Part shown: positions 11,181 through 18,412 of the stretch, one piece after another
How the letters are laid out: each line of letters starts with the position of its first letter
How positions within the stretch are numbered: the first letter of the stretch is position 1
Assembly: GCA_017446095.1 (NCBI GenBank)
Contig: JAFSRN010000012.1
Coordinates: 38,785-102,784 of the forward strand
DNA from: Eubacterium sp.
GTDB lineage: Bacteria > Bacillota > Clostridia > Oscillospirales > Acutalibacteraceae
Direction: 5' to 3'
Length of the DNA stretch: 64,000 nt
Position numbers and translations under genes: made by a program
The notes under the pieces: model-generated
Told to the model about the DNA's origin: nothing
Database searches by the model: none
What the model saw: only the letters and a program-made list of their open reading frames with translations

Positions 11181-12794
11181 TTATACCTGTGAAGCAAGTT
11201 CAAGGTCGTTAAGAAACGCTTCAATCTCTGCCTTGCGCAGTTTCATAGAAGCCATATTTACAATAACTCTTGCCGAAATCGGCAGGATTTCTTCCACAAC
11301 TTCAAGTCCGTTTTCCTTAAGCGTAGAGCCTGTTTCGACTATATCCACAATGCCGTCGGCAAGTCCGAGCAGCGGTGCGAGTTCCACGCTGCCTTCAATC
11401 TTGATTACCGCAACGTCCATACCCTTTGATTCAAAAAATTCCTTTGCAACCTTCGGGTACTTTGACGCAACAACCTTGCGCTTGTAGCCGGAAAAGAAGT
11501 CCGTCCCCTTCGGGCAAGCAAGCGCAAAGCGGCACTTGCCAATGCCGAGGTCGATAACCTCATAAAACGATGAGCCGTGCTCAACAATAGTATCCTTGCC
11601 GACGATGCCGATATCGCACACGCCGTGTTCAACGTACGTTATAACGTCGGGCGCTTTTGACAGCACAGCCTCGTACTTATCAACGGGAAGTATCAGCCGC
11701 CTGCCCTTATTTTCAAGCTCCGAGGTGTCAAGCCCCATAGTCTGAAACAGTCTTACCGAACTCTTTTCAAGCCTGCCCTTTGTGAGCGCAATCCTGATTG
11801 GACGCTCAACGTTGATAACCTCGCGCATCGCTTCGCACAAAGCGGAAACCTCAACAGCAAAGCCGATTGCAGGCGCGTCCGTACCGAACTCGCCGAGCAG
11901 GTTATCGTACCTGCCGCCGGAAAGAACCGTGAGTCCGCTGCCCTGCGCATAGCCGTGGAAGATAACGCCCGTGTAGTAGTTTGAGCGGTTAACAAGTCCG
12001 AGGTCAATCATAATGCTGTCGCCAAGACCTGCGCCGCAGAGCTCGTCGTAGAGCTTCTTGAGGTAGTCGAGCGCGGCGGAAGCGGTTTTGTCCGAATACA
12101 GTTTTTTCGCCTCGCCGATAACTTCCGCGCCGCCGAACAGCCTTGGCAGTCTGCGGATAATCCGCGTTTCTGCCGAGTCGCCAAGCGAGTCAAGCAGGTC
12201 GCCTAGGGCTGCATAGTTCTTGCCCTCAATCAGTTTGCAGATGCTCTTCTTCGTTTCGCCGTCAACATTCATATTCGACAGGATAGTGCTGAAGAACGCA
12301 GCGTTGCCGATTTCAATCTTAAACGAGTTGAAGTCGCAGCGTTTAAGGCACTGCGCCGCCATTGTGATAACCTCAATGTCAGCCTGCATAGAGCCGTCGC
12401 CGATGAGTTCCACGCCGCTCTGCGCAATCTCGTTAGGCACGCCGTACAAATCCTTGCCGCGTACAAATACGTTTTGGTTATAGTAAAGGCGCACAGGCAG
12501 GTTTTCGCCGCCCAGACGCGTTGCAACCATACGCGCAATCGGCATAGTGTTATCGGGGCGAAGCACGGTAGTCCTGCCCTTTGAGTCTGTAAGCTTAAAC
12601 ATCTCGTCGGGCGAAATGCCTGTGTTATCGCTCTCAAACACGTCAAAGAATTCTATAGAAGGCGTGATTACCTTGCGGTATTCGTTTTCCTTAAAAAGGT
12701 CAGCGAGGGTGCGCTCAACCTTGCGCCTGTCGTCGCATTCTTCAAACAGATAATCGCGGCTGCCCTCGGGTGTAATTTTGGAATATTTTTTCAT
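11181..12794 (-). CDS. hisZG: Fused HisZ-HisG ATP phosphoribosyltransferase
   Basis: 537 residues in one frame. Residues 1 to about 330 are HisZ, a class II aminoacyl-tRNA-synthetase-like regulatory subunit (TPEGSRDYLFEE, LRPDNTMPIARMVATRL, YYNQNVFV, VLSGGRYDNLLGEFG). From residue 334 (RIALTKGRLEKSS) to the end follows a complete short-form HisG of 204 residues with the signature ELAPLLGLADGIVDIVETGSTL. Short HisG normally needs a separate HisZ, so fusing the two in one chain gives fixed stoichiometry. It catalyses the committed step, ATP plus PRPP to PR-ATP, and should be the feedback-controlled point. First gene of the his operon, with a promoter overlapped by a palindrome just upstream. 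Confidence 0.93.
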   Translation of the reverse strand: MKKYSKITPEGSRDYLFEECDDRRKVERTLADLFKENEYRKVITPSIEFFDVFESDNTGISPDEMFKLTDSKGRTTVLRPDNTMPIARMVATRLGGENLPVRLYYNQNVFVRGKDLYGVPNEIAQSGVELIGDGSMQADIEVITMAAQCLKRCDFNSFKIEIGNAAFFSTILSNMNVDGETKKSICKLIEGKNYAALGDLLDSLGDSAETRIIRRLPRLFGGAEVIGEAKKLYSDKTASAALDYLKKLYDELCGAGLGDSIMIDLGLVNRSNYYTGVIFHGYAQGSGLTVLSGGRYDNLLGEFGTDAPAIGFAVEVSALCEAMREVINVERPIRIALTKGRLEKSSVRLFQTMGLDTSELENKGRRLILPVDKYEAVLSKAPDVITYVEHGVCDIGIVGKDTIVEHGSSFYEVIDLGIGKCRFALACPKGTDFFSGYKRKVVASKYPKVAKEFFESKGMDVAVIKIEGSVELAPLLGLADGIVDIVETGSTLKENGLEVVEEILPISARVIVNMASMKLRKAEIEAFLNDLELASQV

Positions 12795-13029: not shown

Positions 13030-16000
13030 TTAAAATCCGAACAGCGAAATCTGCTTTGACTCGGGCAGGTCGCCAAGCGCGCCTGCAGCACGCAGAGCGT
13101 CAACAACAGACTTGCCGACACCCGGCTCGTTAGCAAGGTCGTCGGAAGCAATAAAGCCGTCGGGATTGCGCTCAACCGCTTCGGCAATCGAGATGGCAGC
13201 CTTGCCGCCGATGCCGTCTATTGCGGAAAACGGCAGCCTGATTTTGCCGTCCTCAATCTTATACACACGCCAGTCGGACTTATAAAGGTCAACGGGAAGG
13301 AACTCAAAGCCGCGCGCCAGCATTTCAATTACAATCTGGTTAACCACGTAGGTGTCCTCTTCTTTTTGCGTAATCTCAATGTTGTTTGCCTTTTTGCGCT
13401 TGTATTCCTCCATCTTCGCCTTTACTGCCGCCTTGCCCTGCACAGCCGCTACAGCGTCAATCGCGCCGCCGCGCACGGTAAAGTATGCCGCGTAAAAATG
13501 AATAGGATAATATATCTTGTACCACGCAATACGCAGTGCCGCAATAACGTAAGCCGCAGCGTGCGCCTTGGGGAACATGTACTTGATTTTGTAGCACGAA
13601 TCGATGTACCACTGCTCAACGCCGATTTTCTTCATAGCGTCCTCAAACGGTGGCAGCTCTTTTGGCGCCTTGCCCTTACGGGTGTACTCCATAATCTTGA
13701 AGCAGTCCATCTTTGACAGCGGCGATTCCTCGCCCGTATCGCGCTCATACTTTTCCGCAACGTGGATAAGGTGAGTCATAATATCGTCACGGCAGCCGAT
13801 AACATTTGAGATGTCGCAGATGCCGTTATGTATGAGTTCCTGCGCGTTGCCGAGCCATACGTCCGTGCCGTGCGACAGACCGGAAATCTGCAGCAGGTCG
13901 GCAAAGGTTTTTGGCTGCGCCTCGGTAAGCATACCGATAACGAAGGGCGTGCCCATTTCGGGAATAGCGAGGGTGCCGGTTTCGCAGTCGATATCCTCGG
14001 GGCTTACGCCGATTGGCTCGGTAGACGTGATGAGCTTGTACAGATTCGGGTCGGACAAATCAACGTCCATAACGGGAATACCCGTTGAATCCTCGAGATA
14101 CTTATACAGCGTAGGATTATCGTGACCAAGTTCGTCGAGCTTAAGAAGCGTGTCGTGCAGCGAATTCTTAAAGTCGAAGTGTGTGGTGTATGTACCCTTT
14201 TTCTCGTCGTTTGAGGGGAACTGAATAGGCGTAAAGTCCTCAACCGTGTACTCGTCGGGCACGACTACCATACCGCCTGGGTGCTGACCTGTGGTGCGCT
14301 TGATGCCTGTGCAGCCTACAGTCAGGCGGTCAATTTCCGCCTTTGACGTAATTGCAAGCAGGTCGCGCTCCTCAAGGTACTTAACAACGTAGCCGTAGGC
14401 GGTTTTATCCGCAACAGTCGCCATTGTGCCTGCCTTGAACACGTACTCTTTACCAAACAGTTCCTCGGTGAACTTGTGCGAGCGCGACTGATATTCGCCG
14501 GAGAAGTTAAGGTCGATATCAGGCTCTTTGTCGCCGTTGAAGCCGAGGAAGGTTTCAAACGGGATTTCGTGGCCGTCGCGTTTCATAGGTTCGCCGCAGA
14601 CGGGGCAGTTTTTAACCGGCAGGTCAAAGCCCGAGCCGTATTCACCGTTGAGGAAGAATTCCGAGTGCTTACACTTTTTGCAGTAGTAGTGCGGTGCGAG
14701 TGGGTTAACCTCGGAAATACCGCCGAAGTGAGCGGCAAGTGATGAGCCAACCGAACCACGCGAGCCAACAAGGTAGCCGTTCCTTTCGCTCTCCTCAACA
14801 AGGCGCTTTGCAATAACATACAGCACGCCGTAGCCGTTTGAAATAATACAGTTGAGTTCCCTTTCAAGTCGGGCTGCGATATACTCGGGCACGGGGTCGC
14901 CGTAGAGCTCTTTTGCCATAGACCAGCATTTTTCCGTAAGCTCGTCGTCCGCGCCGTCAATGTGCGGTGCAAACTGTCCGGGCGGAATAGGCGGAATATC
15001 GTCCCAAATCATATCGGCAATCTTGTTCGGGTTGTCGATAACAAACTCCTTTGCCCTGTCGCCTGCCCAGGCAAAATCCTCAAGCATTTCGTCCGTTGTT
15101 TTAAAGTACAGCGGCGCCTGCTCGTCCGCGTCCTCAAAGCCTTTTGAAGCCATAAGGATTGCGCGGAATTTGGAATCCTTTTCGTCAATAAAGTGTACGT
15201 CGCCTGTAGCCACAACGGGCTTGCCAAGCGTGTCCGCAAGCTCAACAACCTTTTGGTTGATGCGCACAAGATCGTCCTCGCTGTTGACGTTCTGATGCAA
15301 TTCGCGCTCGGAACGAATCATAAACGCGTTGTTGCCGTTTGGCTGAATTTCAAGATAATCGTAAAATGCGGCAAGCTTAAGCAGCTCGTCGTCGCTCTCG
15401 CCGCGCAGAATTGCCTGAATAATCTCGCCCTGCTCGCAGGCGGAGCCAATCAGTATGCCGTCGCGCTTTTTGGCAAGCATCGACTTTGGAATCAGCGGAC
15501 GCGACTTGAACGTTTTTACGTTTGAGTGCGAAATCATTTCGTAAAGGTTCTTCCTGCCGTACCTGCGTTCCTCCTTGGGGATTGAGTCGTCAAACGAGTT
15601 GTCCTCTTTAACAAGCAGGATGATGTGGTGGCGGCGGAATTCCTTAAGCTTCATATTCATAAAGTCGGGATAGAGCTCGTCGTCAACGAGGTAACCTTCC
15701 ATACCGAGGATGAGTTTAATGCCGTTTGCCTTTGCAGCGGAATACGCCTCGGGCAGCGCCTGAACAACGCCGTGGTCGGTAACGGCAATCGCCTTGTGCC
15801 CCCACTTTGCAGCGCGCTTAACAAGCTCTTTTGGCGCAGTCATACCGTCCATATCGGACATAGTGGTATGCAGGTGAAGCTCTACGCGCTTTTCGTCAGC
15901 GGTGTCCATTTTCTCCGCCTTCTGCACCTTTTCAATAGAGTTCGGGCGCAGTACGGATTCGTTGGAAAACTTGTCAAACTGATACGTGCCGTTGATGATA

Positions 16001-16845
16001 ACCGTGCCGCCGTCCTCAACAGTTTTGAGGATGGGCTCAACCACGTTGTTGCGGTCAAAAACCTTAACCGTGATTGACGATGTGTAGTCCGAAATATCGA
16101 AGGTGAGGATTTTGGAATCACCGCGCTTTGTGTCGCGGCACTCGCTTTTGAGGATATCGCCCCACACGGTGATAACGCCGTCGTCGTACTTAACGTCGGC
16201 AATCGGCTTGGGCAGTTCGCGGATATTCCTGCCGAACACAACCCTGCGCGTGTCCGCATAAAGCGGCGTGCCGGTAAGTATTGTGTGAACTGCATTCTTC
16301 TCCTTTTCCTCTTTTTCCGCCTTCTCTTTTTCGCGCTGCTGTTCAAAGGCTTCGTGCACAGCCTTTTCAACGTCAAAGGTCTGCACTTCCATAAACGACA
16401 CGTCAAAGTCAAGGTCAAACGCGTTGTATATGATTTTTGAAATCTCTTTATCTATCCCCTGCTTTTCAAGTATATCCTTGCCGCCGTTTTTGAGGAACAC
16501 GGTTAAAACGCCGTCCTCAACCTCAGCCTCTGCGCCGTCAAAAAATCCGTTAACCATCTGGTTTGAAAGGCGCACGGGGGAAATGATTTTTTCTATATCA
16601 TCAACCTTGAACAGACTTTTTGGGTACTTGACTTTAAGTTCAACCTTGCTGAGCTTAAGTCCGCCTGCAAGAGACTTCTGCACGCGGTCAATCATCTCTG
16701 CCGTAAGCAGCTTCTGATTCATAACTTCCACAAGCGCGCGCCTGTCATCGCGGTAAAGGACAAGGTGCGTAATCTCGCCAAACCCGATGTCCGCCAGGTC
16801 GTCTTTATCTATGTACTGGGAAAAATAGTTGTAAAATTCGTTCAT
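13030..16845 (-). CDS. polC: DNA polymerase III PolC without the exonuclease domain
   Basis: 1271 residues against about 1440 for typical PolC. Order: N-terminal domain, OB fold (about 215-310), PHP domain starting VELHLHTTMSDMDG (about 319), then thumb, palm with GSRGSVGSSLAAH, a four-Cys zinc motif (CKKCKHSE...CPVCGEP), catalytic PDIDLNFSGEYQ (about 775-786), FKAGTMATVADKTAYGYV, fingers and the C-terminal helix-hairpin-helix region; it ends KQISLFGF. In ordinary PolC a DnaQ-type 3'-5' exonuclease of about 165 residues is inserted within PHP after the LVDD motif. Here GMEGYLVDD continues directly into HHIILLVKED, and no DxE exonuclease motif is present. So this replicase should polymerise but not proofread by itself. 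Last gene of the pyrH-to-polC run. Confidence 0.95.
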   Translation of the reverse strand: MNEFYNYFSQYIDKDDLADIGFGEITHLVLYRDDRRALVEVMNQKLLTAEMIDRVQKSLAGGLKLSKVELKVKYPKSLFKVDDIEKIISPVRLSNQMVNGFFDGAEAEVEDGVLTVFLKNGGKDILEKQGIDKEISKIIYNAFDLDFDVSFMEVQTFDVEKAVHEAFEQQREKEKAEKEEKEKNAVHTILTGTPLYADTRRVVFGRNIRELPKPIADVKYDDGVITVWGDILKSECRDTKRGDSKILTFDISDYTSSITVKVFDRNNVVEPILKTVEDGGTVIINGTYQFDKFSNESVLRPNSIEKVQKAEKMDTADEKRVELHLHTTMSDMDGMTAPKELVKRAAKWGHKAIAVTDHGVVQALPEAYSAAKANGIKLILGMEGYLVDDELYPDFMNMKLKEFRRHHIILLVKEDNSFDDSIPKEERRYGRKNLYEMISHSNVKTFKSRPLIPKSMLAKKRDGILIGSACEQGEIIQAILRGESDDELLKLAAFYDYLEIQPNGNNAFMIRSERELHQNVNSEDDLVRINQKVVELADTLGKPVVATGDVHFIDEKDSKFRAILMASKGFEDADEQAPLYFKTTDEMLEDFAWAGDRAKEFVIDNPNKIADMIWDDIPPIPPGQFAPHIDGADDELTEKCWSMAKELYGDPVPEYIAARLERELNCIISNGYGVLYVIAKRLVEESERNGYLVGSRGSVGSSLAAHFGGISEVNPLAPHYYCKKCKHSEFFLNGEYGSGFDLPVKNCPVCGEPMKRDGHEIPFETFLGFNGDKEPDIDLNFSGEYQSRSHKFTEELFGKEYVFKAGTMATVADKTAYGYVVKYLEERDLLAITSKAEIDRLTVGCTGIKRTTGQHPGGMVVVPDEYTVEDFTPIQFPSNDEKKGTYTTHFDFKNSLHDTLLKLDELGHDNPTLYKYLEDSTGIPVMDVDLSDPNLYKLITSTEPIGVSPEDIDCETGTLAIPEMGTPFVIGMLTEAQPKTFADLLQISGLSHGTDVWLGNAQELIHNGICDISNVIGCRDDIMTHLIHVAEKYERDTGEESPLSKMDCFKIMEYTRKGKAPKELPPFEDAMKKIGVEQWYIDSCYKIKYMFPKAHAAAYVIAALRIAWYKIYYPIHFYAAYFTVRGGAIDAVAAVQGKAAVKAKMEEYKRKKANNIEITQKEEDTYVVNQIVIEMLARGFEFLPVDLYKSDWRVYKIEDGKIRLPFSAIDGIGGKAAISIAEAVERNPDGFIASDDLANEPGVGKSVVDALRAAGALGDLPESKQISLFGF

Positions 16846-17882
16846 TATAATTTGTCAATCTCTTTCATTAATTCGTCGAGCAGTTTGTCCTCATCTACTT
16901 TGCGAAGAATCTCGCCCTTTTTGAAGATAAGACCGCAGCCGTCGCCGCCGGCGATACCAACGTCGGCTTCCTTCGCTTCACCGGGACCGTTAACTATGCA
17001 GCCCATAACTGCAACCTTTATAGGCTTTTTAACGTCGCGCAGGCGCTCTTCCACCTGATTTGCAAGCCCTACAAGGTCAATCTTTGTTCTGCCGCAGGTC
17101 GGGCAGGAAATAAGGTAAGGCGTGTCGGTTTTAAGCCCGATTGCCTTTAAAATATCAAATGCGGCGTAGACCTCTTTAACAGGGTTGTCCGTAAGGCTCA
17201 CGCGTATTGTGTCGCCGATGCCGTGAGTGAGCAGCGAACCGATACCCACAGCGGACTTGATTATGCCCATGCGCTCCGTGCCTGCTTCCGTAACGCCGAG
17301 GTGCAGCGGATAATCGCAGCGCTCGTGCGCAAGCTCATACGCCTTAATCATAGTGTTTACGTTAGAGGATTTTATGGAAATCACGATGTCGCCAAAATCA
17401 AACTTTTCAAGCAGCGACGCATGGTACATAGCGCTTTCCACCATAGCTTCGGGCGTGGGTGAGCCGTACTTTGCAAGAATTTCCTTTTCAAGCGAGCCTG
17501 AGTTAACGCCTATACGGATAGGGATTTGCTTCTGATTGCAGATGTCCGCAACCGCCTTGACTCTATCCTCTGCCCCTATGTTGCCGGGGTTGATGCGGAT
17601 TTTATCTATGCCGCGTTCAGCCGCACCGAGCGCAAGCCTGTAATCAAAATGAATGTCGGCAACAAGCGGAACGGAAACCGCGTTTTTGATTGGCTCAACG
17701 AGCGCGAGCGCCGCCTCGTCGGGAATAGCAAAGCGGATAACCTGACAGCCTGCCTTTTCAAGCTCGACAGCCTGCATAACGCTGCCGTCGATATCGCTTG
17801 CAGGAATATTGAGCATACTCTGAACGAGCACAGGCTCCCCGCCACCGAGAAAAGTATTACCTAATTTTACTTTACGAGTCAT
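16845..17882 (-). CDS. ispG: 4-hydroxy-3-methylbut-2-enyl diphosphate synthase
   Basis: 345 residues. The TIM-barrel start VLVQSMLNIPASDI and the [4Fe-4S]-binding cysteines in CPTCGRTKIDL and MGCIVNGPGEA identify IspG (GcpE), two-domain bacterial form. It reduces MEcPP to HMBPP in the non-mevalonate isoprenoid pathway, the same pathway as dxr upstream in this run. The stop shares a base with the polC start. It is separated from rseP by an inserted repeat cassette with its own gene. Confidence 0.96.
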   Translation of the reverse strand: MTRKVKLGNTFLGGGEPVLVQSMLNIPASDIDGSVMQAVELEKAGCQVIRFAIPDEAALALVEPIKNAVSVPLVADIHFDYRLALGAAERGIDKIRINPGNIGAEDRVKAVADICNQKQIPIRIGVNSGSLEKEILAKYGSPTPEAMVESAMYHASLLEKFDFGDIVISIKSSNVNTMIKAYELAHERCDYPLHLGVTEAGTERMGIIKSAVGIGSLLTHGIGDTIRVSLTDNPVKEVYAAFDILKAIGLKTDTPYLISCPTCGRTKIDLVGLANQVEERLRDVKKPIKVAVMGCIVNGPGEAKEADVGIAGGDGCGLIFKKGEILRKVDEDKLLDELMKEIDKL

Positions 17883-17929: not shown

Positions 17930-18412
17930 GAATTGAGAATGGAGAGTTGAGAATGGAGAATTCAGGGCGGGACACCCGCACCCGATTTTAGTTTTCTTTT
18001 GTAGTTAAAACAATGCTTGAGATAATCTTATGCATTTCACAAACATCACCAAAAAGCGAGTCAAACTCCTGTTTTGAAATATAGGTACCGTTTAGCAATA
18101 CTTTAAGCCAGTATTTTGTTTCGCTGGTTTCTTTTAAAGCGATGCTCATTTTAGAAACAAAATCTTTTCTTGATTGAGCATCCTGTGCTTCTGCGATATT
18201 TGCACCAATACTTGTACCCGACCTTAATATTTGTCTTGATAAAACATAATCTTTCTTTTCATTTACAAGATAATTATACAAATTAACAATTCTGTTTGCT
18301 AACTGTAATGATTTTTCTTCTGCAACATTACTCATATAGAAACCTTTACAATTGGGTGTGGGCAAAGCCCACCATTAATTCTCAATTCTCCATTCTCAAC
18401 TCTCAATTTTAA
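17930..18412. mobile_element. Family B element carrying a four-helix-bundle gene
   Basis: Left arm 17930-17990 and right arm 18351-18410 are inverted copies: 21 bases at 17942-17962 are exactly complementary to 18384-18404, and both have a GC core (GACACCCGCACCC on the left, GGTGTGGGCAAAGCCC on the right). The only gene in between reads on the minus strand. The same end types occur without cargo at 8084-8208. There is no recognisable transposase. The insertion lies inside the otherwise tight rseP-ispG operon. Confidence 0.65.
17988..18335 (-). CDS. Four-helix-bundle protein (23S rRNA IVP family)
   Basis: 115 residues from the ATG at 18335, preceded by AAAGG at 7 bases; the longer frame reads repeat DNA. 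The pattern SLQLANRIVNLYNYLVNEKKDYVLSRQILRSGTSIGANIAEAQDAQSRKDF is the hallmark of the S23/IVP family, first known from intervening sequences of 23S rRNA genes; retroelement Avd proteins share the fold. Function is unknown; pentamer formation and nucleic-acid binding are known for Avd relatives. Codon use is more AT-rich than in rseP and ispG on either side, and the gene is enclosed by inverted repeats, so it is very likely mobile cargo. Confidence 0.88.
   Translation of the reverse strand: MSNVAEEKSLQLANRIVNLYNYLVNEKKDYVLSRQILRSGTSIGANIAEAQDAQSRKDFVSKMSIALKETSETKYWLKVLLNGTYISKQEFDSLFGDVCEMHKIISSIVLTTKEN

Follow-up and report, generated by a model that had tools for sequence, protein, structure and literature searches.

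A PolC replicase without the DnaQ-type exonuclease insert and with an intact PHP metal site, and the record of insert loss among its Clostridia relatives

PolC-type DNA polymerase III alpha subunits that lack the exonuclease domain (here called exo-less, as opposed to exo-plus) have been in the literature since 2013. Timinskas et al. counted them as 6% of PolC, found almost only in Clostridia and Negativicutes, and their table gives the exonuclease as absent in 16% of the set in which PolC accompanies DnaE1 (PMC3919608). This is the only report of the architecture that we found in the openly licensed literature, and we noticed in it neither a tally of separate loss events nor a partly decayed form, nor any connection to close relatives lacking polC. 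In canonical PolC the exonuclease lies between the third and fourth PHP strands, and it was deleted by design in the G. kaustophilus structure 3F2B (PMC12592400); the DnaQ domain is also described as an insertion into a loop next to the PHP site (PMC5636811). The same source describes Mycobacterium DnaE1, in which nine residues of the PHP domain bind three zinc ions and the trinuclear centre proofreads as an exonuclease, and notes that in G. kaustophilus PolC one of the nine is changed and the PHP domain has no activity (PMC5636811). According to a 2026 survey, Clostridia mostly possess three apparently active proofreaders, two of them PHP sites, in PolC and in DnaE1, and the third the DnaQ domain of PolC (PMC12926913). 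The loss of one of them is thus easily understood.

We analyzed a stretch of 64,000 nucleotides (the window) from a Clostridia genome assembled as Eubacterium sp. Its polC reading frame is intact, with 1271 codons, and has the following features:

13030..16845, minus strand: polC, exo-less PolC-type DNA polymerase III alpha, 1271 aa, ATG start (ORF, Pfam, NCBIfam and structure-sequence alignment)
16300..16599, minus strand: PolC N-terminal domain II, residues 83-182 (Pfam PF11490, 33 bits against a cut-off of 26.3)
15931..16134, minus strand: OB fold, residues 238-305 (PF01336, 24.1 bits, below the cut-off of 27; the stretch aligns to 3F2B)
15193..15882, minus strand: PHP region with metal-site residues H324, H326, D333, H358, E383, H407, C470, D549 and H551 (PF02811 at 322-494; the nine residues by alignment)
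15631..15678, minus strand: 16-residue loop, residues 390-405, at the place of the exonuclease insert of other PolC (alignment; a break against full-length PolC 9QPC)
14125..14943, minus strand: Pol3 alpha polymerase domain, residues 635-907 (Pfam PF07733)
14512..14520, minus strand: D776-I-D778 within PDIDLNF (motif conservation)
13039..13053, minus strand: QISLF, predicted C-terminal clamp-binding motif (motif alignment)
16845..17882, minus strand: ispG, directly upstream of polC and sharing one base with it (ORF list and profile search)

The Pfam matches also include the fingers and HhH regions, and both NCBIfam models place the protein in PolC (NF001688, 1372.6 bits against a cut-off of 873, best stretch 429-1269; TIGR01405, 1245.9 bits against 1043.45). 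The N-terminal domain and the OB fold both lie N-terminal to PHP, and the alignment with canonical PolC (E. faecium 9QPC, full length; G. kaustophilus 3F2B) begins at the OB fold and extends to the C-terminus. Further upstream of ispG are ORFs that we interpret as rseP, dxr, cdsA, uppS, frr and pyrH; between ispG and the rseP-like ORF lies a small ORF (17988-18365) whose product we take to resemble a four-helix-bundle protein. On the other side of polC, positions 11181-12794 encode a HisZ-HisG fusion of 537 aa (TIGR00443 at 13-324, TIGR00070 at 333-512). We assume that D776 and D778 of PDIDLNF are the catalytic aspartates. The matching residues of E. faecium PolC have been mutated (PMC12592400), and the clamp-binding role of the QISLF-type motif is taken from Timinskas et al. 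(PMC3919608).

The DnaQ-type exonuclease inserted in PHP, one of the traits by which PolC membership was judged, is absent. Where 57 related exo-plus PolC have 178-212 residues, the window PolC has 16, ELYPDFMNMKLKEFRR, between GMEGYLVDD (381-389) and HHIILL (from 406); its PHP region forms one Pfam match (322-494), and Pfam finds no RNase_T domain in the protein. The preliminary description was thus right that the insert is gone, although the passage from GMEGYLVDD to HHIILLVKED, which it called straight, contains these 16 residues. Counted from E383 to H407, the loop has 23 residues here and 13-39 (median 23) in 116 exo-less PolC; the median is 213 in the 57 exo-plus PolC, and among 54 DnaE from the family the equivalent PHP loop has 20 residues in 51. 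One DnaE and no second PolC were found in the assembly, which has 2.09 Mb and is 97% complete. The protein is therefore like the exo-less PolC of Timinskas et al. in architecture, class and co-occurring DnaE1 (PMC3919608), the window genome's DnaE being called DnaE1, not DnaE3, solely on its intact PHP site.

We then considered relatives, taking the best 80 of 202 found in a scan of named genomes. These go by names such as Clostridia, Oscillospiraceae, Ruminococcaceae, Eubacterium and Clostridium, and a single bin bears the name Bacteroides sp. (L051); metagenome bins make up the majority, many of animal-gut origin, and the isolate Eubacterium coprostanoligenes ATCC 51222 (L064) has a complete exo-less PolC frame. 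The 151 distinct complete PolC frames pooled from this and the other genome scans comprise 57 with 178-212 residues at the insert place and 94 without the insert (11-32 residues), the latter including the window's own and being mostly its near kin, hence not independent; 49 incomplete frames were excluded, many of which were truncated duplicates of genes also obtained in full. PDIDLNF is kept in 91/94 exo-less and 56/57 exo-plus PolC. Across the class, a single alignment runs through the junction in at least 28 of 196 genomes from 11 families, 25 of these 28 were read at the junction, and the class adds 22 complete exo-less frames to those above. This share of at least 14% is close to the 16% given by Timinskas et al. 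for PolC paired with DnaE1 (PMC3919608). The 115 other complete frames of this architecture, 93 in the kin set and 22 elsewhere in the class, rule out an assembly artefact, and they bear out, for the window's own clade, the earlier suggestion that the form is typical of the lineage. The sample of the window's family, 60 genomes from 59 genera, has an exo-less PolC in 17, the insert in 34 (30 read fully, 4 judged by a fragment of PolC that matches RNase_T), a decayed insert in one (G310) and no PolC match in 8.

How often was the insert lost? On a quick tree of 124 PolC rows, with G310 scored as insert-bearing, the insert label changes 12 times, and well-supported branches force no fewer than 9 of these changes. 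A careful tree of 55 PolC rows needs 6 changes and rejects a single exo-less clade (p 1.1e-5); a MutS+DnaE tree of 40 genomes, with unsettled bootstrap and 4 rows filling less than half of the columns, needs 9 and rejects it too (p 3e-11). One single loss is thus rejected on the PolC tree and on the MutS+DnaE tree. Because Enterococcus PolC has the insert at the same place, we read the changes as losses and, as judged from these trees, the exonuclease insert was lost several times within the window's family. By its residues, the G310 PolC carries a decayed remnant of the exonuclease: its 178-residue insert has no RNase_T match, and three of its five catalytic places are changed or missing (D-DDQ; the others of the 61 aligned inserts read DEDHD in 53, DEDHE in 6 and DEDHA in 1). 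Two insert-bearing PolC, L168 and L177, are nested inside an exo-less clade, which may mean a regain or may be a sign of additional losses.

All nine PHP metal-site residues (HHDHEH[C/H]DH) are present in the window PolC. They are intact in 93/94 exo-less PolC of the kin set and in 22/22 more from the class, that is, in 115/116, and the sole exception (L091) has decayed PHP residues and polymerase motifs. L091, itself a decayed extra copy, shares its metagenome bin with a normal PolC, L097. The window PolC is like mycobacterial DnaE1 in having the nine metal-site residues and a loop next to the site but no DnaQ domain; the two differ in that the latter is of the DnaE type with exonuclease activity shown, whereas the window protein is of the PolC type and its activity is predicted (PMC5636811).

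We propose, with a probability of roughly 60% and from sequence comparison, that the window PolC is a functional polymerase whose predicted proofreader is the PHP site in the same protein, backed up by DnaE and mismatch repair. In our model, the resident PolC of an E. coprostanoligenes relative, its polymerase motifs intact, has lost the DnaQ-type insert of the loop beside the PHP active site, leaving a loop of DnaE-like length. The PHP domain itself would proofread as a zinc-type 3'-5' exonuclease, as in mycobacterial DnaE1, and the PHP site of DnaE together with MutS and MutL would serve as back-up. The PHP site is likewise conserved in exo-plus PolC of the class, which probably made the insert redundant, so that it could be lost many times. 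The nine residues are equally conserved in exo-plus PolC (57/57), so conservation alone does not prove that PHP took over proofreading, and the site may be conserved for folding.

The preliminary description had offered, as one of two possibilities, that fidelity depends on a separate exonuclease, which would be a DnaQ-like one acting in trans. The window genome does hold one stand-alone RNase_T protein, the 293-aa L001 on another contig, which is its single PF00929 match. L001 is nearest to KapD (84.6 bits against a model cut-off of 169), and proteins of this kind are common irrespective of the insert: an RNase_T match occurs in 50/60 family genomes with or without the PolC insert (in G312 only via another DnaQ-like frame), and three exo-less genomes (G209, G330, G335) have no RNase_T match. 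Stand-alone RNase_T proteins show no excess in exo-less genomes, numbering 0.93 per genome in 14 of them and 1.00 in 27 exo-plus genomes (p 0.77; genomes at least 90% complete out of the 60, with G310 and G314 omitted and eight having no PolC). G314 has an exo-less PolC and one stand-alone RNase_T match and is labelled exo-plus in our DnaE tree. For RNase_T-type nucleases, compensation by extra DnaQ-like genes is therefore rejected, and we regard proofreading in trans as very unlikely; of the first interpretation, the absence of the insert and its lineage-typical form stand, and the dependence on a separate DnaQ-like exonuclease is not supported. Other DnaQ-like proteins occur in the family, namely L299 (G332) and L300 (G312), which to us resemble DnaQ with a BRCT-like tail, and L301 (G286) and L302 (G295), which presumably resemble Cas2-DnaQ fusions.

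Alternatively, nothing replaced the exonuclease and more frequent mutation is simply tolerated, the faster mutation that the preliminary description gave as its other possibility. Exo-less genomes are somewhat smaller (median 1.85 Mb, n=14, vs 2.3 Mb, n=27; p 0.03, genomes at least 90% complete, kinship uncorrected), and among them G323, near the window, has its MutL match split over two frames, and G300 has no MutL match, its MutS match ending at a contig end. However, the window genome has both MutS and MutL above cut-off, which rejects mismatch-repair loss there, the PHP sites of its PolC and its DnaE (HHDHEHCDH) are intact, and the end branches of exo-less PolC are not visibly longer than those of exo-plus sisters (by eye, on the quick tree). 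As far as sequence can tell, the retained MutS, MutL and nine PHP residues thus do not favor the view that fidelity was simply lost, and we consider this explanation improbable. In the family, MutS and MutL are each above cut-off in 56/60 genomes; G322, a 1.0-Mb genome with an insert-bearing PolC, has neither match.

The DnaE PHP site is intact in 50 of the 54 family members examined. Among the other four, the DnaE of G300 starts at a contig end, the assembly interrupts that of G333 close to the N-terminus, that of G342 has one change and that of G313 has six. G313 is a 1.1-Mb genome whose DnaE (L298) keeps the polymerase aspartates (PDFDIDV) with 6/9 PHP residues changed; its exo-less PolC retains all nine.

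Five genera of the family (G302, G307, G332, G333 and G342) have DnaE only, with one PF07733 match each and no PolC match. The stretch behind ispG, where polC sits in exo-less G209, G286 and G329, holds no PolC frame in any of the five; ispG lies well inside its contig in four of them, whereas G307 has about 3.9 kb of contig left beyond it. Three more genomes without a PolC match (G304, G319, G326) were set aside, since none gives an intact ispG match and completeness is only 69-75% in two. The five form one group in both trees (100 on the DnaE quick tree; 100/100 on the MutS+DnaE tree). The PolC-less group would fit a further explanation, namely a demotion of PolC: genome replication would rest with DnaE, PolC would be a helper being lost whose proofreading matters little, and shedding the exonuclease would be an early stage in the disappearance of polC. 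PolC acting only in special situations was raised by Timinskas et al. (PMC3919608). In its favor, the PolC-less five group with exo-less G209, G286 and G329 on the DnaE tree (97), and on the MutS+DnaE tree their sister is exo-less G343 (80/97), within a part of 8 exo-less and 4 exo-plus rows. These exo-less neighbors suggest that in the PolC-less branch the exonuclease went before the whole polC. In contrast, the sister of the group differs by tree and the larger part is weakly supported (71/96), the polymerase, clamp and PHP motifs are well conserved in exo-less PolC, and in G313 the decay of the PHP site hit DnaE, not PolC. We therefore see demotion as possible and rather doubtful, and retain PHP proofreading of a working PolC as the preferred reading.

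Beyond the published architecture, the analysis adds the repeated loss within one family, the decayed insert of G310, the conservation of the PHP site and the branch without polC. Tentatively, they might be stages in the dismantling of the second replicase in one Clostridia family, in which the DnaQ domain decays or is lost repeatedly, PHP becomes the sole proofreader of PolC, and polC then disappears in one branch, where DnaE replicates alone. If so, in lineages like G313, where PolC is exo-less and the PHP site of DnaE has decayed, proofreading would fall to the PHP site of PolC alone. The exo-less PolC are natural deletions for asking whether the PolC PHP site proofreads, and for asking whether PolC or DnaE replicates the chromosome in Clostridia, a question that Timinskas et al. 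did not settle (PMC3919608). The independent losses, the G310 remnant, the G313 case and the PolC-less group offer these comparisons among near kin.

Every species is said to possess DnaE (PMC12926913). In G299, G322, G330 and G303 (PolC L371, L372, L369 and L370), which are 92-99% complete, protein and PF07733 searches gave no DnaE match, and assembly gaps are possible. The first three, with genomes of 1.0-1.4 Mb, are near kin on the PolC tree, and their relative G335 has DnaE.
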